Virus record (IMG/VR): IMGVR_UViG_3300030118_000695
Coordinates: 1 to 30,337 of that record
Strand: one strand, 5' to 3'
Origin: a virus
Length of the DNA stretch: 30,337 nucleotides
The position numbers and the translations under genes were made by a program. Below are positions 2,765 through 25,742 of this stretch, piece by piece. Numbering within the stretch: position 1 is the stretch's first letter; each line of letters opens with the position of its first letter. The notes below the pieces were generated by a model. The model was given only the letters and a program-made list of their open reading frames with translations, searched no databases and had not been told where the DNA came from.

Positions 2765-3622
2765 TTATCCCCCCATTATTGAATTAAGTGTTTCTTCTGT
2801 GTAATCCTTACCCTTGTAAACTTTTGGCTGTTCTGGTACAAATTCAACCCCACAGCAAGGACTGCTTTTATAAAACTCATCTGCTTTCAAATACATAGCA
2901 TCAGCACATTTTGCACAGTACCCCTTATACATACCAGATGGCAGTAATCTAAATTGTTTCTTTTTATTAATAGTCTGTACTATAGGTTTAATCACAGCAT
3001 CATCCCATCTTTCATTATTTAACCACACATCTAAGGCAGGTGTAAACTTTGGATCAGTATCCTTCCAATTATTATCAACTTGGTTTTTAAAAGCTGTGTA
3101 AATCTTATCATGGTCTTTCTTTTTAACAGCAAGTATGTACTTTTGATAGGCTTTCTTTTTACTTACTTTCTTAGGTACTAATAACCAAAGCTTTTCAAAC
3201 TCTTGAGCATATATATTATTTCTTTCTTTCTTATCATTCTTGTTTTTGTATCGTTTCTGTATCGGTGCTGTACTCGTTAGTGTATCGTTTTGATTTTCTT
3301 GAATCTGGTAAGTTGCGTAATTACAAATACTTACGACATTTTGACCTGTATCCGTTTTTACTTCAATCATTGAACACTTTTTTAACAGGTTTATAAACCT
3401 TTGAACCTTACCTATACTCCAATTCCAACGCTTAGATAAGTATCTAAATGAGGCATCTATTTCACCTTGTTGTAATATGACTTCTTCACCTTTTATAAAC
3501 TTTGTACGCTCTTTATGTGTAGCCATTAATAATAAATCAAGCCATGCTTTTAACTGCTCTGGTTTATCCCAGATAGGGTTATCTTGTATCTTACGATGCA
3601 GTTTTATCCAACCATTGCTCAT
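2765..3622 (-). CDS. Replication initiator / replisome organiser-like protein
   Basis: A 285-aa protein. Residues 3-18 (NGWIKLHRKIQDNPIW) are the typical opening of phage O-like and DnaD-like replication initiators, followed by a winged-helix-like segment (about 50-100: GEIDASFRYLSKRWNWSIGKVQRFINLLKK). The middle (145-207) has LVPKKVSKKKAY and PALDVWLNNERWDD, common in phage replication proteins that recruit the helicase. The C-terminus carries CAKC (236-239) and CC (256-257), a likely zinc site. No helicase or polymerase gene is visible, so it presumably recruits host replication proteins at an origin. A near copy of its first codons occurs at 4308-4339. Confidence 0.78.
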   Translation of the reverse strand: MSNGWIKLHRKIQDNPIWDKPEQLKAWLDLLLMATHKERTKFIKGEEVILQQGEIDASFRYLSKRWNWSIGKVQRFINLLKKCSMIEVKTDTGQNVVSICNYATYQIQENQNDTLTSTAPIQKRYKNKNDKKERNNIYAQEFEKLWLLVPKKVSKKKAYQKYILAVKKKDHDKIYTAFKNQVDNNWKDTDPKFTPALDVWLNNERWDDAVIKPIVQTINKKKQFRLLPSGMYKGYCAKCADAMYLKADEFYKSSPCCGVEFVPEQPKVYKGKDYTEETLNSIMGG

Positions 3623-3631
3623 TTTATAAAC
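3600..3631. repeat. Imperfect direct repeat flanking the Mom-like gene, copy A
   Basis: A 32-base repeat matching 4308-4339 at 28 of 32 positions, including an identical 17-base core AGTTTTATCCAACCATT. This copy spans the start of the replication initiator (MSNGWIKL) and the last codons of the Mom-like gene. Its partner lies just upstream of the Mom-like gene, so the pair brackets that gene. Confidence 0.88.
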
Positions 3632-4305
3632 ATATCAATTTGTGTTTTTGGTTTAAAACTAGCATCATATTTTATATTTTTACCTTTAGGATAATCTAAG
3701 CATTTAAACCTTTTGTTTTTATTAAATATTTTAATTTGTTTTTTACTACCTAAAAATTTAATATAACGATATTTAGGTTCTCTTTTTATCTGATATAACC
3801 TATCACCATATTTTTCTTTTAGTTTTTTGACTCTATTTTTTTGATTTACAAATTCATCTATTAAAGTTCTATTATGAATATTTTCTGATCCTTTTAACTT
3901 CCAATCTAATTGAGTATGAGTTTTTCCTGTAAACATAAAATTTGTAGCTTGATAAACATAACCATTATGACCTATAGATTTATCTGCATAACTAACTATA
4001 ATTAATGGTTTAGGTAATAATCTAAAAATTCTACCTAAAAAATAACTATTTGCATTTTTATGAAGATCATCATTTGTACAAAGTCTATTTAATTCATAGA
4101 CATAGTTCATATATTTTTTACCACAAATTGAAATTTTCATAACATTTGTAATAGCATTTCCAAAAGTGCAAACACCAACTAATTCATTTTTATGATATAA
4201 TCCAAAACTATAACTAATTGATGGTAATCTTTTTAAATAATGTTTATTTAATATCCAATCATAAGTCTCATTAGATTTTATTGATATTACACTATAATTA
4301 TTCAT
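3619..4305 (-). CDS. Mom-like DNA adenine modification protein
   Basis: A 228-aa protein. The layout HY (22-23), SYSFGLYHKNELVGVCTFG (31-49), YELNRL (70-75), SYADKSIGHNGYVYQATN (105-122) and TQLDWKLKG (131-139) is the one I know from phage Mu Mom-type proteins. These have a GNAT-like fold and attach a carbamoylmethyl group to adenine N6, protecting phage DNA from restriction. The C-terminal third is very Lys-rich, which fits DNA binding. It is bracketed by a 32-base direct repeat, so it appears to have been inserted between the NinG-like gene and the replication initiator. The Mom assignment rests on motif memory, not a search. Start ATG at 4305 with weak SD. Confidence 0.78.
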   Translation of the reverse strand: MNNYSVISIKSNETYDWILNKHYLKRLPSISYSFGLYHKNELVGVCTFGNAITNVMKISICGKKYMNYVYELNRLCTNDDLHKNANSYFLGRIFRLLPKPLIIVSYADKSIGHNGYVYQATNFMFTGKTHTQLDWKLKGSENIHNRTLIDEFVNQKNRVKKLKEKYGDRLYQIKREPKYRYIKFLGSKKQIKIFNKNKRFKCLDYPKGKNIKYDASFKPKTQIDMFIK

Positions 4306-16673: not shown

Positions 16674-17054
16674 CTATCCTAAAATCTCTATATGCACAAG
16701 ATCATCAAAACTATTATCCTTAATTTCGCCATCAGAATCCCAATCTCCACCCCACCTAACATAATAACCTAATTGTTTTGCTATTCCCCTAATCATCCCA
16801 CCCATATAATGAAATCTTTCTCTATCATTCCAATCTATTGGATAAGGTGCTACATCTACAGCTTTACCTTCAAGATGTTTAGAGTATTTTGTTTTTGTAG
16901 CACCTTTTTTTAGTAGTTCTTCTTGCCTCTCTGGTGATCTTATACCCTCAATGATAGTTACATCCATAATTTCAATAAGTCTATCTAAGACCTCTCTTAA
17001 TCTAGGATCAATACCAACCATTCTTTGCTTTGATCTTTTACCAAATCTAGGCAT
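16674..17054 (-). CDS. M15-family endolysin (VanY-like / L-Ala-D-Glu peptidase)
   Basis: A 126-aa single-domain peptidase. The motif SKHLEGKAVD (58-67) provides zinc ligands His60 and Asp67. HIE (121-123) gives the third ligand His121 and the catalytic Glu123. GIRSPERQEEL (37-47) carries the substrate-binding Arg. This family cuts peptide bonds in peptidoglycan stem peptides, as in T5-type endolysins. It has no signal peptide, so it needs the upstream holin-like proteins to reach the wall. The short basic N-terminus (PRFGKRSKQR) is similar in composition to the three basic proteins coded just before it. Confidence 0.9.
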   Translation of the reverse strand: MPRFGKRSKQRMVGIDPRLREVLDRLIEIMDVTIIEGIRSPERQEELLKKGATKTKYSKHLEGKAVDVAPYPIDWNDRERFHYMGGMIRGIAKQLGYYVRWGGDWDSDGEIKDNSFDDLVHIEILG

Positions 17055-17149
17055 TACTTTTTCTTTCTTTTTTTACCAAATTTAAACATTGATTTTTTCT
17101 TTTTCTTTGCTTTGCTCTTATGAGCTTTTTTTCCGTAGTGTGATGGCAT
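17054..17149 (-). CDS. Tiny very basic protein
   Basis: A 31-aa peptide, about half Lys/Arg (MPSHYGKKAHKSKAKKKKK and onward), with TAATG overlaps at both ends linking it to the genes on either side. Short lysine-rich peptides beginning MPxxYGKK are, from memory, frequent in marine phages. Likely nucleic-acid binding in nature. A role is not established. Confidence 0.6.
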   Translation of the reverse strand: MPSHYGKKAHKSKAKKKKKSMFKFGKKRKKK

Positions 17150-17541
17150 TATGCTCTCCTAACTTTCTTTGCTACTCGTTTAGTATAACTTGCTCTAGTC
17201 TTTCCCTTTTTGGTAGCCTCTCGTTTCTTGCGATTCGTGTAGGCTTTTTGTCCTTTAGTTAAAGACTCTCTTACTTTTTTAGGTAGGTATCTACCTCGTT
17301 TTGCTCTGGGTTTTTTAGCATCTCTTTTACTAACATAACCCCAATCCTGCTTACTCCACTTAGTAAGTGAATTTTTAGATGATTTTCTACCCCTGTAACC
17401 TCCACCTGCTTTTTTATATCTTGCTGTGGCAAGTTGTGCCTTTCTCGCAGTCCAGACACCTCTTCTACCTCCCTTGCTACCTGCTTTGACTCTAGCTACA
17501 ATGCTTTTCCATAATTTTGGTTTTGTACGCTTAGTTGCCAT
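17149..17541 (-). CDS. Basic protein of the DUF5872-like family
   Basis: A 130-aa protein with extreme Lys/Arg content. The core segments KLWKSIVARVKAGSKGG (9-25), ARKAQLATARYKKAGGGYRG (32-51), KSSKNSLTKWSKQDWGYVSK (53-72), KRGRYLPKKVRESLT (81-95) and the C-terminal KKVRR match, from memory, a small conserved domain (DUF5872) found in phages and in large DNA viruses of algae and amoebae. Function is unknown. The charge suggests binding to DNA, for instance as an internal virion protein. It is co-coded with two other basic proteins between the holin and endolysin. Confidence 0.7.
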   Translation of the reverse strand: MATKRTKPKLWKSIVARVKAGSKGGRRGVWTARKAQLATARYKKAGGGYRGRKSSKNSLTKWSKQDWGYVSKRDAKKPRAKRGRYLPKKVRESLTKGQKAYTNRKKREATKKGKTRASYTKRVAKKVRRA

Positions 17542-17834
17542 TATTTTCTCTTAGTCTTAGATGGTTTCCATTTCACTAGATTTGACCAGAATGCAGGACT
17601 TTTGCGACCTCTAGCTATATTTTTACGATGTCTAGCCTTAAATGCTCTGCGTTGTGCAGAAGTTTGATTTGTTTTAACACCCTGCTGACCAAATCTTATA
17701 AGTTTAGTCTTAAACTTTCCACCTTCCTTAAATCGTGCTAGAACAATATGCGATTTTTTTGGATGCTTGGGAGTTCTTTTAGGAATGTTGAATCCTTTAA
17801 GTCCAAAGCGTTTTAATCTGGGATCACGAGCCAT
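17541..17834 (-). CDS. Basic protein with FKARHxKNI motif
   Basis: A 97-aa basic protein. It starts MARDPRLKRFGLKGFNIPKRT, then has KTKLIRFGQQGV (42-53), AFKARHRKNIARGRKSPAFW (64-83) and a closing W. The pattern IRFGQQ...SFKARH...W is one I associate with a widespread group of small phage proteins of unknown function. It overlaps its neighbours by TAATG on both sides. Probably DNA-associated given its charge. Confidence 0.68.
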   Translation of the reverse strand: MARDPRLKRFGLKGFNIPKRTPKHPKKSHIVLARFKEGGKFKTKLIRFGQQGVKTNQTSAQRRAFKARHRKNIARGRKSPAFWSNLVKWKPSKTKRK

Positions 17835-18070: not shown

Positions 18071-18214
18071 TTATATCTCCCTTATGTTTTTTATTTTATA
18101 TCCTAAATAAATAATGGTCATCACAGCTACTAAACATTGTAAGATTAGACTTACTTCAGCTAGTGATAAACCATAATTAAATAAACTTGCAAATGATACT
18201 TTTAAACTATCCAT
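18071..18214 (-). CDS. Putative small holin
   Basis: A 47-aa protein: a short polar N-terminus (MDSLKVSFASLFNYG), one strongly hydrophobic helix (about residues 16-40: LSLAEVSLILQCLVAVMTIIYLG) and a basic tail (YKIKNIREI). This is the design of small single-span phage holins, which open the inner membrane for the endolysin. It overlaps the previous gene as TAATG and lies in the lysis cluster upstream of the M15 peptidase. No holin family signature beyond topology. Confidence 0.6.
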   Translation of the reverse strand: MDSLKVSFASLFNYGLSLAEVSLILQCLVAVMTIIYLGYKIKNIREI

Positions 18215-18537
18215 TACTTTCCGTTAATTCTTCCCTGCATATAATTAATTTGATTACTTAATTCATCTATAGTTTCAGTCATCTTTTCATGCCTTCTGTC
18301 TAGTTTGTCATGTAAAGACGATTTAAAGGAATTGATTGAATCAATTAACTTGACAGAGATATTCATTGTATTGTTAATCTCACTAGCCATTTGGCTTAAA
18401 TCTGCTCTAATAGACTCTAAGTCATCTGATTGTTCCTTTTGTGATTTAATAAGGTTTAGTATCATAAATCCAAACAAGCAGAGGCAAAAACCAACTGCTC
18501 CTATTTGTAAATAAGCATCTGCAAAAGTTTCAATCAT
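18214..18537 (-). CDS. Membrane-anchored coiled-coil lysis-cluster protein
   Basis: A 107-aa protein: a membrane helix at about residues 10-30 (IGAVGFCLCLFGFMILNLI), then a long charged coiled coil (32-105). The topology (N-terminal anchor plus coiled coil) is shared by i-spanins and BhlA-like holins. Its ATG overlaps the stop of a 43-aa frame as ATGA. Which role it plays cannot be decided from sequence. Confidence 0.6.
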   Translation of the reverse strand: MIETFADAYLQIGAVGFCLCLFGFMILNLIKSQKEQSDDLESIRADLSQMASEINNTMNISVKLIDSINSFKSSLHDKLDRRHEKMTETIDELSNQINYMQGRINGK

Positions 18538-18665
18538 CTAACTCTCCGTAGTTCCCTGTTCATAAAGTAATTATGATTAAAATCATCTTCTGTTAATACT
18601 ATTTTCTTTTTCTTTTTAAAATATTTAAAGGATTTAAATCCACTTCTAAAGATTTTTTGTACCAT
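18534..18665 (-). CDS. Small basic protein overlapping the spanin-like gene
   Basis: A 43-aa frame, basic (KSFKYFKKKKK), starting ATG at 18665 inside the end of the 102-aa gene in another frame and stopping with TGA that overlaps the next ATG by 4 bases. The ATGA linkage at its end and the 60-base interval it fills argue that it is translated. No family recognised. Confidence 0.42.
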   Translation of the reverse strand: MVQKIFRSGFKSFKYFKKKKKIVLTEDDFNHNYFMNRELRRVR

Positions 18666-18907
18666 GCTTGTATCTCTTCTATCTCAGCATCATGTATTGA
18701 CTTGAGGTCATCAAGTCGTTGTGAATGTTCGATAATTGCTGACTCAACCTCTCTAAGTCTTTGCTCATAAGTAAAGACTGTCCAACCAAAAATAGAGAAT
18801 GCAATAATGCAGTTAATAATAAACCTAACATTGAAAGATACGATGAGATTATCACTAATTGTCGTAACCCCATAACTCCTGTATGTTTTTTGTTTCTCAT
18901 CACTCAT
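18599..18907 (-). CDS. Spanin-like inner-membrane protein
   Basis: A 102-aa protein: a polar N-terminus (SDEKQKTYRSYGVTTISDN), a membrane helix around 29-48 (FIINCIIAFSIFGWTVF), then a coiled coil (50-90) and a basic end (KRKRK). A single anchor followed by a periplasmic-type coiled coil directly after a small lipoprotein is the arrangement of an inner-membrane spanin with its outer partner, but in reversed gene order. Its ATG overlaps the stop of the lipoprotein gene (ATGA). Confidence 0.58.
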   Translation of the reverse strand: MSDEKQKTYRSYGVTTISDNLIVSFNVRFIINCIIAFSIFGWTVFTYEQRLREVESAIIEHSQRLDDLKSIHDAEIEEIQAWYKKSLEVDLNPLNILKRKRK

Positions 18908-19020
18908 ACCTCATAACCTGCGACACTCCAACCACTATCACATGATGCAAAAATCATTATTCCAAATACAAATAGTAAAAATAAAACTATCTGTATGTAA
19001 TCTTTAAAATCTTCGTTCAT
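18904..19020 (-). CDS. Tiny lipoprotein-like protein (possible o-spanin)
   Basis: A 38-aa protein: a short N-region, a hydrophobic core (about residues 10-25) and then FASC followed by DSGWSVAGYEV. FASC resembles a lipobox, with Phe in place of the preferred Leu at -3, so lipid modification at Cys27 is plausible. The mature peptide would be only about 12 residues. Asp after the Cys would favour inner-membrane retention, which argues against an o-spanin. ATGA overlaps join it to the pilin gene before and the spanin-like gene after. Confidence 0.5.
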   Translation of the reverse strand: MNEDFKDYIQIVLFLLFVFGIMIFASCDSGWSVAGYEV

Positions 19021-19544
19021 GGCTTGTAATATTTATAAAAATCTTCTGGGTTTTCTTGATCTACTACAACAAAGATAGGACTTACAATCGCATTACCTGT
19101 TCCAGAGCCACCTATAATAGCATATAAATATCTGCCATCTTGATAAGGTGATTTAATTGTGTCATTATCAAATAAATGAAGAAAGCTAGTATCACTAAAT
19201 ACAGGTACATAAGTACCTTCTAACACCTCATTTGCCTCTATTCTGCGATTATTATTGTAATCAATGACCTCACCTATGTCTACTGTTCTATGAGGCTGTG
19301 AAGGGAATTTACCCATGCCATTTATTTCTACCTGTTGATTATACCACATTGAAGATGCTTTAACTATTTTTTCCAGATTAGCCTTAGTTTGTTTAGCTTT
19401 AGCTCCCTCACCGATACGACTAAAAGCAGGAGCAGAGGTAGTTGCAAGAGTAGCCATGATAGCCATAGTAACTGCGAACTCAGCAAGACTGTTTCCCTTA
19501 TTGTTGCAAGTGCAAAAAAATATACAAGCACATTTTTTATTCAA
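19017..19544 (-). CDS. Type IV pilin-like protein (class III prepilin)
   Basis: A 175-aa protein. The leader (residues 1-17) ends NNKG, followed by NSLAEFAVTMAIMATLATTSAPAF, so processing would give Glu at mature position 5 (Glu22) and a hydrophobic helix, the hallmark of type IV pilins. The helix continues into a charged amphipathic spine (GEGAKAKQTKANLEKIVKA). The globular part has DYNNNRRIEANE (95-106), which fits an EF-hand/dockerin-like calcium loop (Asp1, Asn3, Asn5, Ile8, Glu12), and a pseudopilin-like end. The TTG start at 19544 with GGAG upstream overlaps the previous gene by 8 bp. It lies between the fibre and lysis genes, with no secretion or ATPase genes, so host prepilin peptidase would be needed. 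The motif is clear; the role is not. Confidence 0.82.
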   Translation of the reverse strand: MNKKCACIFFCTCNNKGNSLAEFAVTMAIMATLATTSAPAFSRIGEGAKAKQTKANLEKIVKASSMWYNQQVEINGMGKFPSQPHRTVDIGEVIDYNNNRRIEANEVLEGTYVPVFSDTSFLHLFDNDTIKSPYQDGRYLYAIIGGSGTGNAIVSPIFVVVDQENPEDFYKYYKP

Positions 19545-20079
19545 TGGGTGAACTCCATTCTTCTTTTTTCATTTCTTCAAGAGCCTCTGATTTACTAAAT
19601 AGTGTAATACCACTAATACCATCAAGCTCTGCAAATGTCCCATCTTGTATAGGAAGTTCATACTTAACTATTACTTTACTATTATCATTATTCCATCTTG
19701 GACTACCAAGCTTGCCTAACTTAAATGCTGACTCTTTCCAAGTTGGGTCTTGTAATGTAGTCGTATCTATTTCTTGATCTGTGTATGTATACTCTTCTTC
19801 TACTTGTGGTACACCACTTAGTAAAATATGCTCATCTATCTTTGCAAGTAATTCAGCTTTAGTATCTCCACTACTATAATCTATACTATGAGTGTCCATA
19901 AATGCTGTTATTTCGCTTTTTAAATTGTCATCGGTAGGTAGAGTTGCATCTACATTTCTTTTTGCTGTTTTACTAACATCTTTATATGTGAACTCATTCC
20001 AAGATAGTTTATCACTTTTTTTTAATTTACTTGGAAGTTTACCTTCCCATTTTGCTTTTGTTAAAATAATATAGATCAT
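19537..20079 (-). CDS. HeH/LEM-like domain protein, fibre-associated
   Basis: A 180-aa protein. Residues about 47-84 (TDDNLKSEITAFMDTHSID and then TKAELLAKIDEH) have the helix-extended-loop-helix pattern of phage HeH/LEM (SAP-like) domains. Around it are two beta-rich halves: YIILTKAKWEGKLP at the start and NDNSKVIVKYELPIQDG near the end. It sits between the second LamG fibre gene and the pilin gene, so a fibre-assembly or chaperone role is reasonable. HeH domains are often in phage tail and head proteins of unknown role. Confidence 0.6.
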   Translation of the reverse strand: MIYIILTKAKWEGKLPSKLKKSDKLSWNEFTYKDVSKTAKRNVDATLPTDDNLKSEITAFMDTHSIDYSSGDTKAELLAKIDEHILLSGVPQVEEEYTYTDQEIDTTTLQDPTWKESAFKLGKLGSPRWNNDNSKVIVKYELPIQDGTFAELDGISGITLFSKSEALEEMKKEEWSSPIE

Positions 20080-20088
20080 ATTTTTCCT

Positions 20089-22974
20089 TTATGAATTTTT
20101 ATGGCTACCTTTCCCTGCTTTATAGTTAGTAGAAATCTCAGATGCTGATAATGCACGATTGTAAATCCTAAACTCATCAAGTAAGCCATTCCAAATACTT
20201 GTTCCTGCATCTGTACCTGTCCAAGCAGAACCAATTCTTAAATCATCTGTAGTATTGTTAAATATTGATGTACCACCACCCGATGTAGTTTGAGTATTTG
20301 CTTGTACCTGTCCATCTACATACATAATTACACTACCACTACTAAATGTAACTGCGTAATGTCTCCAATTATCTATACTTGATATAGCACTATTACTTAA
20401 ATACCTATTAAAATTAGCGTTTCCATTATCATTAGTATCTAATTGTATTTTTTCAGATGAGTCTATTATTAACCTAAACGACCTTTGATTATTTGCGTAA
20501 TCATATTGATCTACAATTTGCTCCCCAGATGAATCTCCTGTATTATGCTTTAACCAACATTCAATAGTTATTTGTTCTTTTAAACCCATATCGGTAGGTG
20601 GTACTGCAATAAACTCACTACTTCCATTTAACCTTAACACATTGCTACTTGGATTAGTAAAATAAAACCCAAGTCCATCTCTGTTTGAGTTAAGTCCTTC
20701 TCTGATCGTTATAGAATCTGGACTTCCCGAAACTGTGCCACTGTTACTATTCGTACTTCTATCTTTCCATGTAGTAACACCATCGTTCCGCCAATATCCG
20801 ATAAGATTTGCAGATTGACTATGTGTAGTAGCATCGTATGCAACACCATCGTTAAATAGTTCTTTGACTTGTGTGGCAGATAAAGCATAGTTCCATACAG
20901 AGAAATCATCAAAAATATTTATTTGTGCAAATGAAGAAGTTCCTGCACCATAAGTTCCTATATATCTAATAGATTTTAAATCAACTGCACTATCAGAAGA
21001 AATATCATGTGATGATAATAAAACTCCATCTACATAATAAATTAAATTTCCACTTCTATCAGCACTAATTACTATGTGTCTTAATTTACCATCATTAAAT
21101 GTTGCACTGCTAGGAAGTGCTGATGATGTAGCAGTTAATCCCCCATTCCATCTTAATTGAGTAGTTCCTTCTCCATGTACACTCCATTGCGTAGTTGAAG
21201 AATTATCTGAACCAAACAATCTTTTATCTGTAAGTGCTGTTAAAGTACATAACCAAAATGAAATACTAAAATCAGATGTACCAAGTCTGGGAAGAGATGT
21301 ACCTAAATCAACTTTATCATCAATCCCATCAAACAACATCTTCTGATTATATCTCATCAATGGTACTTGTGGAACTACAGGTTCATTTACAGCTGTCTCG
21401 AATCCAGATGACGATATTCCTACTTCTTTAATTTCAAAATTACTTATTGTAAAATTATAAGTACCATTCACTACAAATCTAAATGATGGTCTGCGTGTTA
21501 CTGTTGATGTTGGAGTAAATGTATATGAGTAGTTATTTGCTGATGAAATTAAAGTATATGATAAAATACTATCAGCACTACCTGTTGTTCCAGAAGTAAC
21601 TCCAACAAAAATACTACCTATAGAGCCACTATTAATAGCAAGTGTAAAACTCATTTGATATGTCCTGCCTGCTACAAATGATATTTCATCTCCATAAGCA
21701 TTATCATCATTACCTACACTTGCATCTGTATTTACTGCTGTAAAGCCATCTGCCGATGCTCCTGTAAATCCTACTAAATCAGAATTATTCCAAGTTCCTG
21801 TCTGTAAATCATCCCCAAAGAAATTTGTAGTAGCGTGGTTGCCCATAAGGACTTCTTTGACATCAAAACTATTTAATACAAGTTTATCTCCTGTAGATAC
21901 ATCTACTTCAAATATTCTAAAGTATGAACTTGCACCATCACATACTCCATATATAGTATTTATACCTGTTGTTAATGGACTTTTAAGAAAGACATCAGCA
22001 CTACAACTACCACCTGCATTATTTATGCTATAACTTCCTGTTGTTGTGCTATCTACATCTAATGTTACTTTTAAAAATTTTTGAGGTATTCCAGAACCAC
22101 CTGCAAAATTACCTGCTGATAATTGACCAACAACGGCAGGACTATCGCCATCCATTGTAAAAACCATTTGGTCATTAGAAAAAGATTTAGTAGCTCCACT
22201 ACTTGTCCAATCGTTAGATGTAACTCCAGAAAATGTAGTATTACTTGCACTTGTTATTTCTGAACTACCCAACTTCTTTTCACTACAATCATACACTATG
22301 CTCTGTGGACTTTCTGGATTACCCTCAATCATAGGATACCAAGCTACAAGGTTATTCTGTACTGAGCTTGGTGTGTTTTCTGGTTTTTTATAAAGTTCAG
22401 TTACTTGTGCCTCTGTAAGTTCTGTGTTAAACACTTTTACATCTGTTATTTTTCCATTAAATCTGTATGCTAAATTCCAATAATTACCAATAGTCGTATG
22501 TAATCCACTAAAATCAAGTGTACTTGGAAATGAACCTCCTGCTGTGCCAACTGATTCTCCATCTAAATATATTTTTGAATTAGCCTCTGATGAACCATAT
22601 ATACAAACAATATGATGCCAATTTGATGTATCTGTAAATGATACTTTTCTATGCCAACCATTACCATTAAGAAGAAAATAAAGGTCATTATTATTATCTT
22701 TTTGAAAACTAAACTCTCCTGCTCCTCCATTATTTCCTATTTGAAATAAACCACCATCTGTAGTTCCATCATTTTTAAACCATAAAGATGCAGTTAGTCC
22801 AGTATCTTTACTATATCCATTTCCAAGCTGATTGCCAAGTCCTGTACCACAAGTAAGATAATCAGTAACCCCATCAAATACTAATGCTCTACCACCATAG
22901 ACATCTGCATGATCTGCAATGTTAGCAGTTAATTTAGGAGAGTTAGCGTATCCAGAATTAATTGTCGTAGCCAT
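20089..22974 (-). CDS. Giant fibre protein 2: LamG and carbohydrate-binding modules
   Basis: A 961-aa protein. Three LamG/concanavalin-like jellyroll modules are visible, at about 25-205, 540-735 and 780-955. Each starts ALVFDGVTDY-like, has a W(H/R)H(I/Y)V edge and YxDG turns, and closes with (L/A)(L/T/S)xxQV or SEI. Between the first two are two carbohydrate-binding-like modules (about 240-375 and 380-520). Such proteins bind surface glycans, so receptor binding is likely. Its start aligns with the linker inside the upstream fibre protein, suggesting both derive from one repetitive protein. ATG at 22974 overlaps the upstream stop (TAATG). Confidence 0.8.
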   Translation of the reverse strand: MATTINSGYANSPKLTANIADHADVYGGRALVFDGVTDYLTCGTGLGNQLGNGYSKDTGLTASLWFKNDGTTDGGLFQIGNNGGAGEFSFQKDNNNDLYFLLNGNGWHRKVSFTDTSNWHHIVCIYGSSEANSKIYLDGESVGTAGGSFPSTLDFSGLHTTIGNYWNLAYRFNGKITDVKVFNTELTEAQVTELYKKPENTPSSVQNNLVAWYPMIEGNPESPQSIVYDCSEKKLGSSEITSASNTTFSGVTSNDWTSSGATKSFSNDQMVFTMDGDSPAVVGQLSAGNFAGGSGIPQKFLKVTLDVDSTTTGSYSINNAGGSCSADVFLKSPLTTGINTIYGVCDGASSYFRIFEVDVSTGDKLVLNSFDVKEVLMGNHATTNFFGDDLQTGTWNNSDLVGFTGASADGFTAVNTDASVGNDDNAYGDEISFVAGRTYQMSFTLAINSGSIGSIFVGVTSGTTGSADSILSYTLISSANNYSYTFTPTSTVTRRPSFRFVVNGTYNFTISNFEIKEVGISSSGFETAVNEPVVPQVPLMRYNQKMLFDGIDDKVDLGTSLPRLGTSDFSISFWLCTLTALTDKRLFGSDNSSTTQWSVHGEGTTQLRWNGGLTATSSALPSSATFNDGKLRHIVISADRSGNLIYYVDGVLLSSHDISSDSAVDLKSIRYIGTYGAGTSSFAQINIFDDFSVWNYALSATQVKELFNDGVAYDATTHSQSANLIGYWRNDGVTTWKDRSTNSNSGTVSGSPDSITIREGLNSNRDGLGFYFTNPSSNVLRLNGSSEFIAVPPTDMGLKEQITIECWLKHNTGDSSGEQIVDQYDYANNQRSFRLIIDSSEKIQLDTNDNGNANFNRYLSNSAISSIDNWRHYAVTFSSGSVIMYVDGQVQANTQTTSGGGTSIFNNTTDDLRIGSAWTGTDAGTSIWNGLLDEFRIYNRALSASEISTNYKAGKGSHKNS

Positions 22975-25742
22975 TATTTTAGCACTCCTGTGTTTGATGT
23001 TACTTCTTTGATAGATATATCTGTCATAGTCATATTAGCACCACCACTAAGGTCAAATGAAATAAGAAAGTAAGTTTGAGATGCAACAAAATATCTTGTA
23101 TAAGTTCCTGCTCCTGTTGGTACAAAAGTTATATCATTATCAAATAAACCTCGTACTCTTCCACTACTATAACTATCTATTACAAAAGTTACTTTGTACA
23201 ATTTCCCAACTGTTAATATGCCACTTTTTTGCAATCTTGTATCTAAAGCATTTGCTACAGTTAATTTTCCTGCTGTAGTAGTATTTACATCTACGCCACC
23301 ATTACCTAAAGAAATAGTCCAATTACTTGCATTATCAAAAGTAGGATCACCAGATATTTCAGCTCCCAACACTTCGCCTGTAGTTACATCATTTGTAAAT
23401 CCTACACCACTTGATGTATCTGAACTATCTCCATCAAGTGGATAGTACGCAACGATGTCGTTAAATACTTCTTTAATGCTAATGCTTGATAATGTACCTA
23501 CAAATGATTGAGAACGAAGAGTAATAGAACCATCTTGATATGGAACTGCATAATTAGTAAATGTACCTACACCACCTATTGATGATGATATTCCAAAATT
23601 AGTTCCAAATGAAGCAGAACCACCTTGATGAGATAATGAGCCACTTGTATATGCAGAACATACTATTACTATTTTATATACTTTTGATGTATTCCAAGTA
23701 ACATTATCTGCTATAGAATAATAATCACTTGATACATCACCACCATTAATAACCATTTCCCCATTAAATGTAGTCTTGCCAGATGCTACTGATAAAGAAC
23801 TTGGAACTGTTACACCTGTGCCATCACTAAAATCATGTGTTAATGTTTCTGAACCTAATGTACTTTTTACATCAGCAGGGATTTTTGAATATGATGTAGA
23901 TTCAAAAACAGATTGTATCTTAGATTGCGAAAGCTCTCCTGCCCATATCCCTGCTTGAGATATATTGCCTAAAAAATTTTCTGCAATAGCACTTCCTGTC
24001 CAACCTATTTTAAATGTGGCTGTGCTTGTTTGATTTCCATTTCCTTGAGATACAGTATTATCTAATATACCATTTATATAAAACTTTTTATTACTTCCAG
24101 ATTGTACTAAAGCTACATGAGTCCATTCTTTATCTGGTATAGCTGAATTACTAAGAGCATTGCCACTACCATTCCAACTCCCAAGTTTTTCATCATCAAA
24201 TTTTACATATAATTGCACCTCTGTATTAGCACTATTCCCATCATTAAGCCTTACTCCAAATATTCCTGCATGATTAGTATTTGTTGCATCGTGATATATC
24301 CATGCAGTTAATGTAAAATCACCACTTGAAAAATCATATAAATCAGTACCAAACTCTATATAATCTGTATCACCATCAAAATTTGCACTACCATTTCCAA
24401 TATTATCAGCTTGACCTTCTTTAGCTACATCAACTGCACGAGGTAAGATCGGTGCATTACCACCATATACTGATGTGGTAGTTGTTGCTCCTGTTACTAA
24501 TCCTGTATTTGAGGTTATTTTTTTTACTGAAATATTGCTAATTGTTGTGGTTACACCATTTGAATAAATCAATAAGTTAGAAGTGCTATTTGTAAAATAT
24601 ACTGTATGTGTCCCTACTGAAGTTATTCCAAATGAATTTTCAAAACTTTGAACAGTTCCATTTTTTACTATTCCTGCATTTACTAAACTTTCAGCAGAAT
24701 CTATAGTTATAGTCATTTTATATAAAGCATTTGCATCATCAAAAATGTTGCTTTGAGATAAATAATTAAAACCACTTGTACCATCTGCTGATGCAGTTCC
24801 GTTAGTAGCATTTATGCTCCACCCTGTACCTTTACTCCAATCACTATCTGCATCAAAACTACCATTAGTTACTCTTTCTTCACTTGTTTCTCCTGTTGCA
24901 GGTTGCACTACTCCATCACTTGCACTATCTAATGCCCACCATGCTACTAAACTTGTTTTTTCTACACCCTTTAGTTGGCTATAGGATTTGTTCATTATGG
25001 ATTGGATTTCTTCTGGAGATAGTTCTCTGCTCCATAACCCTGCATTACACATACTCATAACTGCACCACCACCATCGCCACCAATATTATCTAATGTAAA
25101 AGTATCAGTTGATGTGCTTGTAGTAGACTGCACTCCATTTAAGTATGATTTTATGTTACCATTATCGTCTCTTGTGAAAGCTAAATGACTCCAAGTATTA
25201 TTAGGTACATTATTTATATTTGCTTTGTAATTACCATTAATTCTAATTGAAACTTGTCCACTTACATCTTTTACTAAAATATCATTAGTTCCACTTGGAG
25301 GAGATGAATCTCCAAATAATCTTTTATAAGCAGTATTAACATCTCCATTAAACCAACAAACAACACTAAATGCCCCTGTAAATGTTTGTTGCGAAAACAT
25401 TATTTTATCTGTATAGGCAAACGATGTTGAACCTTCTGATGGGAACTTTAGCGTGTTTGATTTATTATAATTAAAATCTAAATAAAGTTTTAAATTATCA
25501 GTAATAAAGTTTAACCAAGCTCTCCACCTACTATTAAATGATCCACTATCCCCATGAGTGTTGTTTATTTTAGAGTTTAGGCTTGTACCTTCCCCACTTG
25601 CCCAATTTCGCCATTTACTATTTATACTATTTCCAGATGCACTAGCATCTTTTAAAAAATCACTAAGATTAGTATTTAATGATCCCCCACTCTCATCATT
25701 ATCATACTGACCTTTTACATTTGTATTTAATGAATCTGACAT
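22974..25742 (-). CDS. Giant fibre protein 1: LamG and carbohydrate-binding modules
   Basis: A 922-aa protein. Residues 1-75 contain five short S(L/I/F)N(T/S) units at 4, 21, 39, 54 and 68, spaced 14-18 apart, which may be the virion anchor. LamG-like modules follow at about 86-265 and 455-615, with carbohydrate-binding-like modules (about 290-425, 640-760 and 785-915) between and after, each ending in IS(V/I)K(K/E). The C-terminus TSNTGVLK matches the module linker TSNTGLVTG of the same protein, then the gene ends. It lies directly after the capsid gene, in an unusual place for fibres. Receptor binding is inferred. Confidence 0.78.
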   Translation of the reverse strand: MSDSLNTNVKGQYDNDESGGSLNTNLSDFLKDASASGNSINSKWRNWASGEGTSLNSKINNTHGDSGSFNSRWRAWLNFITDNLKLYLDFNYNKSNTLKFPSEGSTSFAYTDKIMFSQQTFTGAFSVVCWFNGDVNTAYKRLFGDSSPPSGTNDILVKDVSGQVSIRINGNYKANINNVPNNTWSHLAFTRDDNGNIKSYLNGVQSTTSTSTDTFTLDNIGGDGGGAVMSMCNAGLWSRELSPEEIQSIMNKSYSQLKGVEKTSLVAWWALDSASDGVVQPATGETSEERVTNGSFDADSDWSKGTGWSINATNGTASADGTSGFNYLSQSNIFDDANALYKMTITIDSAESLVNAGIVKNGTVQSFENSFGITSVGTHTVYFTNSTSNLLIYSNGVTTTISNISVKKITSNTGLVTGATTTTSVYGGNAPILPRAVDVAKEGQADNIGNGSANFDGDTDYIEFGTDLYDFSSGDFTLTAWIYHDATNTNHAGIFGVRLNDGNSANTEVQLYVKFDDEKLGSWNGSGNALSNSAIPDKEWTHVALVQSGSNKKFYINGILDNTVSQGNGNQTSTATFKIGWTGSAIAENFLGNISQAGIWAGELSQSKIQSVFESTSYSKIPADVKSTLGSETLTHDFSDGTGVTVPSSLSVASGKTTFNGEMVINGGDVSSDYYSIADNVTWNTSKVYKIVIVCSAYTSGSLSHQGGSASFGTNFGISSSIGGVGTFTNYAVPYQDGSITLRSQSFVGTLSSISIKEVFNDIVAYYPLDGDSSDTSSGVGFTNDVTTGEVLGAEISGDPTFDNASNWTISLGNGGVDVNTTTAGKLTVANALDTRLQKSGILTVGKLYKVTFVIDSYSSGRVRGLFDNDITFVPTGAGTYTRYFVASQTYFLISFDLSGGANMTMTDISIKEVTSNTGVLK

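Follow-up and report, generated by a model that had tools for sequence, protein, structure and literature searches.

A siphovirus-type phage genome of 30,337 bases (~33% G+C; IMG/VR record IMGVR_UViG_3300030118_000695), the whole of which was analyzed here and is called the window, carries on its minus strand a gene (19544 to 19017) that, judged from its sequence, encodes a true type IV prepilin. Among the three bacterial groups sampled, its closest counterparts are pilins of Marinimicrobia pilus operons, and we lean slightly toward an explanation in which the gene was taken from the pilus operon of marine Marinimicrobia, or is common to both, and in which the phage would feed the product, as a pilin mimic, into the pilus machine of its host late in infection, altering or blocking the pili. 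A more specific version, which we hold tentatively and at somewhat less than even confidence, is that a widespread family of marine phages disarms or recoats the type IV pili of uncultured Marinimicrobia by way of a false subunit, the display region of which is replaced by an EF-hand-like loop.

The pilin gene and its product

The elements of the gene are as follows.

19017..19544, minus strand: prepilin gene, 175 aa, start TTG at 19544 and stop at 19017 (evidence: the ORF, 80 relatives, homology to host pilins, and dN/dS)
19494..19544, minus strand: leader peptide MNKKCACIFFCTCNNKG, with a presumed start codon
19476..19499, minus strand: predicted cleavage site for prepilin peptidase, KG↓NSLAEF, which includes Glu5; G-1, N1, and E5 invariant at 80 of 80 loci
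19428..19430, minus strand: codon for Pro22 of the mature pilin, invariant at 80 of 80 loci
19227..19262, minus strand: EF-hand-like loop DYNNNRRIEANE, recognized from conservation and alignment with host pilins
19134..19187, minus strand: C-terminal motif SFLHLFDNDTIKSPYQDG, conserved and common to host pilins (..EF...F....IKSPF/YQDGHY)

The leader is followed by a mature protein that begins NSLAEFAVTMAIMATLATTSAPAFSRIGEGAKAKQTKANLEKI and has the hydrophobic N-terminal segment NSLAEFAVTMAIMATLATTSAP, with Glu at +5. An earlier sequence-only reading of this DNA had called the product type IV pilin-like on the strength of a cleavage motif (NNKG↓NSLAEF), Glu at mature position 5, and a hydrophobic segment; all three are present, to which Pro22 can be added, and whole-length homology to pilins of Marinimicrobia pilus operons makes the case stronger than was stated. 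When residues were tallied at 80 related loci, anchored on G[NA]S[LM]AEF, which was found in all 80, the residues G-1, N1, E5, and P22 were each present in every locus and K or R occupied position -2 in 78. The leader is hypervariable in both length and sequence, with 40 different eight-residue ends among the 80 loci, except for the terminal K/R-G. Comparison of relatives with the window copy gave dN/dS values of ~0.08 to 0.17, which at the level of the coding sequence shows purifying selection and, together with full-length homology to chromosomal pilins (E 1e-25), indicates that the ORF is more than a product of chance.

The loop follows the pattern D-x-N-x-N-R-R-I-E-x-x-E, a 12-residue EF-hand-like arrangement in which, among 22 diverse phage members, positions 1, 3, 5, and 9 are invariant, position 8 is nearly so, and position 12 is E or D; an earlier remark that the protein contains a calcium-loop-like sequence is thereby borne out as a sequence pattern. 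One weak match to it was found among 25 host pilins.

Searches of Pfam, NCBIfam, and PHROGs with the single phage protein returned pilin matches, all of them below threshold. The N-terminal methylation model PF07963 was matched by 25 of 29 members (best E 0.024), the window protein scoring 13.7 bits against a cutoff of 21.2; the full-length host homologues tested also fell below the cutoff, though they are encoded in a pilus operon, and we therefore conclude that PF07963 misses this pilin subgroup and treat it as an aid to detecting the pilin superfamily rather than as a strict requirement for membership. TIGR01710 (GspG) was matched weakly by 15 of the 29, the N-terminal half being GspG-like. 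Against the PDB, a profile of the phage proteins alone gave weak pilin matches (Geobacter, 0.2; MshA, 0.31; PilA, 0.6), all in the correct register, and a profile that combined phage and host proteins matched geopilin 9egp at 8.6e-6, the PilA of 8tj2 at 1.5e-5, and MshA 9lab at 2.3e-4. AlphaFold2 models of the phage pilin, built from two low-diversity, phage-only alignments, reached pLDDT values of 43 and 41, too low for a confident fold. A TadE-like reading of LAEFA was dropped in view of Pro22 and the full-length match to pilins of type IV pilus operons.

Homologues in Marinimicrobia pilus operons

Three bacterial groups were sampled for homologues, namely, Marinimicrobia, Gammaproteobacteria, and the phylum of a Flavobacteriales metagenome-assembled genome (MAG). 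Searched with the phage pilin alignment, the Marinimicrobia phylum gave matches down to E 1.8e-25, and the full-length homologues lie in one family, the one that holds both MAG UBA7303 and genome G125, in which 16 of 33 genomes matched at E<1e-10 and 18 of 33 at E<=0.001. Two of 185 control Gammaproteobacteria genomes had weak N-terminal matches (best, 3e-5), and none of 198 genomes from the phylum of the Flavobacteriales MAG matched. The host homologues are ~205 to 260 aa in length and often occur in tandem, and the match spans their N-terminal and C-terminal parts; for the best of them, identity with the window protein is 47 to 48% across 158 aligned residues and rises to 67 to 68% in the first 57. 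Profile-profile comparison of phage and host pilins returned a probability of 100, the second of the alignments compared including six phage members.

These host pilins lie directly downstream of an A24 prepilin peptidase (PF06750/PF01478), a PilB/MshE-type ATPase, and PilC/GspF, and the PilB/GspE ATPase of the locus carries an MshEN domain with a c-di-GMP motif. Many GFTLIEL pilins and GspH/I/J-like subunits come after the SLAEF-type pilins, and farther along the locus encodes an ATPase with a fused PilM-like part, as well as a PilQ/MshL-type secretin; within the family, PilT scored above its cutoff in 25 of 33 genomes and secretins were found in 31 of 33. The SLAEF-type Marinimicrobia pilins (L239:1459-2127, L227:1462-2133) resemble the phage pilin in G-1, E5, and P22, in the C-terminal motif, and in their ends (..KKYQP and ..KYYKP) but are longer (~205 to 245 aa when mature) than the phage protein, the mature form of which has 158 aa, possess a variable middle, and have a long basic leader unlike that of the phage. 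Between GRGRFPGQ and SPF/YQDGHY the host pilins contain a long region that varies among paralogues, whereas the phage pilin has there a short stretch with DYNNNRRIEANE. In the Marinimicrobia pilus operons L263, L264, L265, and L267, tandem pilins have middle regions that differ strongly between paralogues, and the ATPase encoded there has MshEN and a c-di-GMP motif.

A short pilin that lacks the variable middle also occurs in another Marinimicrobia lineage (G124; L234:1456-1935), so that the short form need not signal a dominant-negative design; from the sequences it may be ancestral, the host insert being derived. When this G124 pilin was added to the tree, support on the host-family side was 58/0 and long branches met; we therefore do not claim a deletion in the phage pilin. 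GTDB contigs scanned with phage-specific pilin patterns yielded no relative, and viral contigs scanned with the long host pilin yielded no phage carrying the long form.

A phage contig (L224) with a gene of the lysis cassette described below was binned in MAG UBA7303, in the family that has the pilin homologues. Binning is unsafe as host evidence because two more contigs that bear the marker gene of this cassette were binned in MAGs of other groups (Flavobacteriales and Gammaproteobacteria). No tRNAs were found that could assign a host. Pilin homology, together with the one contig binned in a Marinimicrobia MAG, suggests that Marinimicrobia are probably the hosts of the pilin-bearing phages. 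The contigs from the Flavobacteriales and Gammaproteobacteria MAGs (L225 and L226) are myovirus-like, and by eye the marker gene in them adjoins possible CsgG-like lipoprotein genes.

The lysis cassette and its neighborhood

The genes that surround the pilin in the window are as follows.

22974..25742, minus strand: LamG-domain gene A (PF13385), a neighbor outside the proposed mechanism
20089..22974, minus strand: LamG-domain gene B (PF13385), a neighbor outside the proposed mechanism
19537..20079, minus strand: gene upstream of the pilin, its end overlapping the pilin start; it flanks the empty site in pilin-less phages
18904..19020, minus strand: lipoprotein ORF, 38 aa, lipobox FASC, predicted mature part CDSGWSVAGYEV (lipobox scan)
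18599..18907, minus strand: cassette marker, a one-TM coiled-coil protein of the KT[YA]RSY family, i-spanin-like by anatomy alone
18214..18537, minus strand: following gene of the lysis cassette, for a one-TM coiled-coil protein that is spanin-like by anatomy alone
16674..17054, minus strand: M15-type peptidase endolysin (phrog_465, E 5e-41; PF13539)

Domain matches confirmed that two LamG genes lie upstream of the pilin (Laminin_G_3, E 8e-60 and 1e-29) and that an endolysin gene lies downstream. The lipoprotein ORF, which the first reading missed, overlaps the pilin stop by ATGA at its start and overlaps the marker gene at its end; a lipobox scan recovered such ORFs, in a short or long form, from the window and ~35 of 80 loci, the short form having a predicted mature part of ~12 residues, C[DN]xGW[ST][IV]AGYE[VI], and the small lipoprotein is also present in cassettes without the pilin. 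The pilin gene always lies just upstream of membrane/lysis genes, either joined to the lipoprotein by the ATGA overlap or touching the coiled-coil gene, and the same-strand, overlapping arrangement suggests that it would be cotranscribed with its neighbors. The gene that precedes it varies between phage types, so the linkage to LamG genes, which had been put forward on the basis of the window and is an adjacency found there and in many relatives, is positional. Pilus assembly genes, reported absent from the vicinity by the sequence-only reading, were indeed not seen in the window, and a search of the record for a prepilin peptidase was empty. Two very Lys/Arg-rich small proteins are encoded between the membrane genes and the endolysin (17149-17834, minus strand; phrog_7595; phrog_17747, phrog_14910).

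A mobile accessory gene among marine phages

Relatives of the pilin in IMG/VR numbered 87 when single-sequence patterns were used and at least 177 with an alignment; none was found in 50,697 phage records, and tblastn against annotated phages returned no relatives of the pilin, portal, tail tip, or cassette. The phage pilins that were tested all group in a single clade (support, 100/99). Nineteen pilin-bearing contigs fell into two sets: 12 have a P22-like portal, and the other 7 are siphovirus type, like the window. The portal, terminase (TerL), and capsid (MCP) proteins of the two sets form separate similarity families without detectable capsid or tail homology. Pilin pairs are at least 78% identical across both virion types, and portal and terminase pairs go down to 25 to 28% within one set; the 19 contigs were picked for the pilin, so that its presence in them is by construction, but its identity is not. 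The pilin is accordingly not coinherited with one capsid/tail type.

The cassette marker (18599-18907) has at least 512 relatives in IMG/VR, and among marker loci with enough upstream DNA, 33 have the pilin and 31 do not. All 31 pilin-less cassettes have the lipoprotein and/or coiled-coil gene; several have the same flanking genes joined directly, and some have another membrane protein gene in the slot. Mapped onto the marker tree, pilin presence required 11 changes, at least 4 of them forced by well-supported branches. One pilin clade spread across two unrelated virion types, combined with 31 otherwise similar cassettes that lack it, marks the gene as a mobile accessory that keeps a constant position ahead of the membrane/lysis genes and speaks against its being part of the virion or of the LamG fibers. 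Recurrence at this locus in relatives had been proposed as a check, and the gene is present there in many of them.

At or near the pilin's place, the pilin-less cassettes L187-L191, L209, L212, and L214 have a gene for a 97-aa multihelix membrane protein (MKNPLATFYSWQV...), and the slot may be a hot spot for exchangeable envelope genes. A VanZ-like reading of this alternative slot gene had no Pfam support. The contig of L022 (73,241 bases; L139-L142) is a composite or chimeric assembly: its terminase/portal set is present twice, as is its lysis cassette, and the pilin is found in only one of the two cassettes.

Proposed action on the host pilus and competing explanations

In the mechanism that we propose, the prepilin would be produced late, along with the products of the lysis cassette, and would enter the inner membrane. 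There the prepilin peptidase of the host would cut behind the KG that ends the short leader, and the mature subunit would join the host type IV pilin pool. The polymerization helix and the conserved C-terminal part are kept, and the EF-hand-like loop would stand in place of the long variable region; we propose competition or coassembly with host pilin because these two parts are retained and the variable region is absent. The outcome would be pili that are blocked or shortened, or that are coated with subunits devoid of the usual surface. If pili serve as receptors, as is putatively the case, a likely gain would be superinfection exclusion, pilus-binding phages no longer adsorbing, and a second would be that progeny virions do not stick to the pili of the dying cell; we infer these blocks to superinfection and readsorption from the nature of the subunit and its setting. 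Exclusion genes are often expressed early or from prophages. The position of the pilin gene among late and lysis genes, unlike that of many exclusion genes, weighs against the mimic. Late expression would suit prevention of progeny readsorption as well as exclusion. Strong conservation would also fit a pilin that assembles normally. Of the three roles suggested in the sequence-only reading, that of a decoy subunit directed at the host pilus has the most support, the interference with the pilus itself being what we infer.

The main rival is productive remodeling, in which the phage pilin would be built into functional hybrid or replacement pili to the benefit of the phage. Altered adhesion, aggregation, or motility of an infected cell might, for instance, bring progeny into contact with new hosts. 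Retention of every assembly feature under strong purifying selection, conservation of the EF-hand-like loop as though it were functional, and the presence of extension and retraction ATPases in the host family all speak for it; we nevertheless think it unlikely, although deserving of real weight, given that a single pilin is carried, the display region is missing, and expression beside lysis genes would leave little time for a change in behavior. A role in lysis, the envelope function contemplated earlier, would have the pilin take part in holin/spanin-type lysis as a pseudopilin-like inner membrane subunit, its partners being the small lipoprotein and the coiled-coil proteins. The constant contact with membrane/lysis genes makes this possible, but pilin-less lysis cassettes are common, 31 of them having the lipoprotein and/or coiled-coil gene, and so close a likeness to host pilins would be unneeded, leaving this role improbable.

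We give still less credence to the idea that what the pilin boosts in the host is not a pilus but a type II secretion-like or DNA uptake function. The GspG-like N-terminal half and the GspH/I/J/K-like subunits of the host locus are in keeping with it; the same locus, however, has PilM-like and PilQ/MshL-type genes, with PilT elsewhere, and the joint host and phage profile matches the pilins PilA and MshA in the PDB. Least probable of all is a virion part, such as a fiber piece working with the LamG proteins, as the sequence-only reading had also entertained. In the window, as in many relatives, the pilin does sit between LamG and lysis genes, but pilins at least 78% identical accompany two virion types with separate families of portal, terminase, and capsid proteins, similar LamG genes occur with no pilin beside them, cassettes without the gene are frequent, and the hydrophobic N terminus should direct the protein to the inner membrane.

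Relation to known systems

Several phage proteins, namely, Tip, Aqs1, Zip, and PfsE, are known to bring about superinfection exclusion by disabling type IV pili; PilB is bound by Tip and Aqs1, PilZ by Zip, which acts on PilZ-PilB, and PilC by PfsE (PMC11656802, PMC8764522, PMC11436027). Like these proteins (PMC11656802, PMC8764522), the pilin is phage encoded and has the host type IV pilus as its proposed target, but those proteins are small, nonpilin inhibitors of Pseudomonas phages, whereas the pilin would act as a false subunit. Aqs1, the only one of the four compared (structure reported as 6V7U), was absent from the PDB profile matches of the phage pilin up to E 1. With the major pilins of the type IVa/MSHA type (PilA and MshA) the phage pilin has in common the N-terminal helix and its register; it differs in having Asn rather than Phe or Met at +1, in a dissimilar globular part, and in being encoded by a phage without assembly genes. 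Pelagibacter phages HTVC111P and HTVC026P show distant capsid protein similarity (~30%) and have no pilin.

In the literature searched, with subscription journals and preprints outside its scope, we found no description of a phage-encoded, prophage-encoded, or viral pilin. A phage protein that acts on type IV pili is thus of a known kind, and the use of a homologue of the host pilin as the means appears to be new; its spread through marine viromes is noteworthy. The motor or the platform protein is what the known phage anti-pilus proteins inhibit; a pilin brought by the phage itself and conserved across unrelated virions would, if the proposal is true, represent interference by subunit mimicry. 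To our knowledge, there is no cultured phage of Marinimicrobia (SAR406). The pilin offers a sequence handle by which many uncultured marine phages may be tied to these bacteria, and it suggests that the pili of this Marinimicrobia lineage matter in phage infection.

Elsewhere in the window, at 3619-4305 on the minus strand, a Mom-family protein is encoded (PF25680, E 1e-38), which suggests Mom-like DNA modification in this marine phage.
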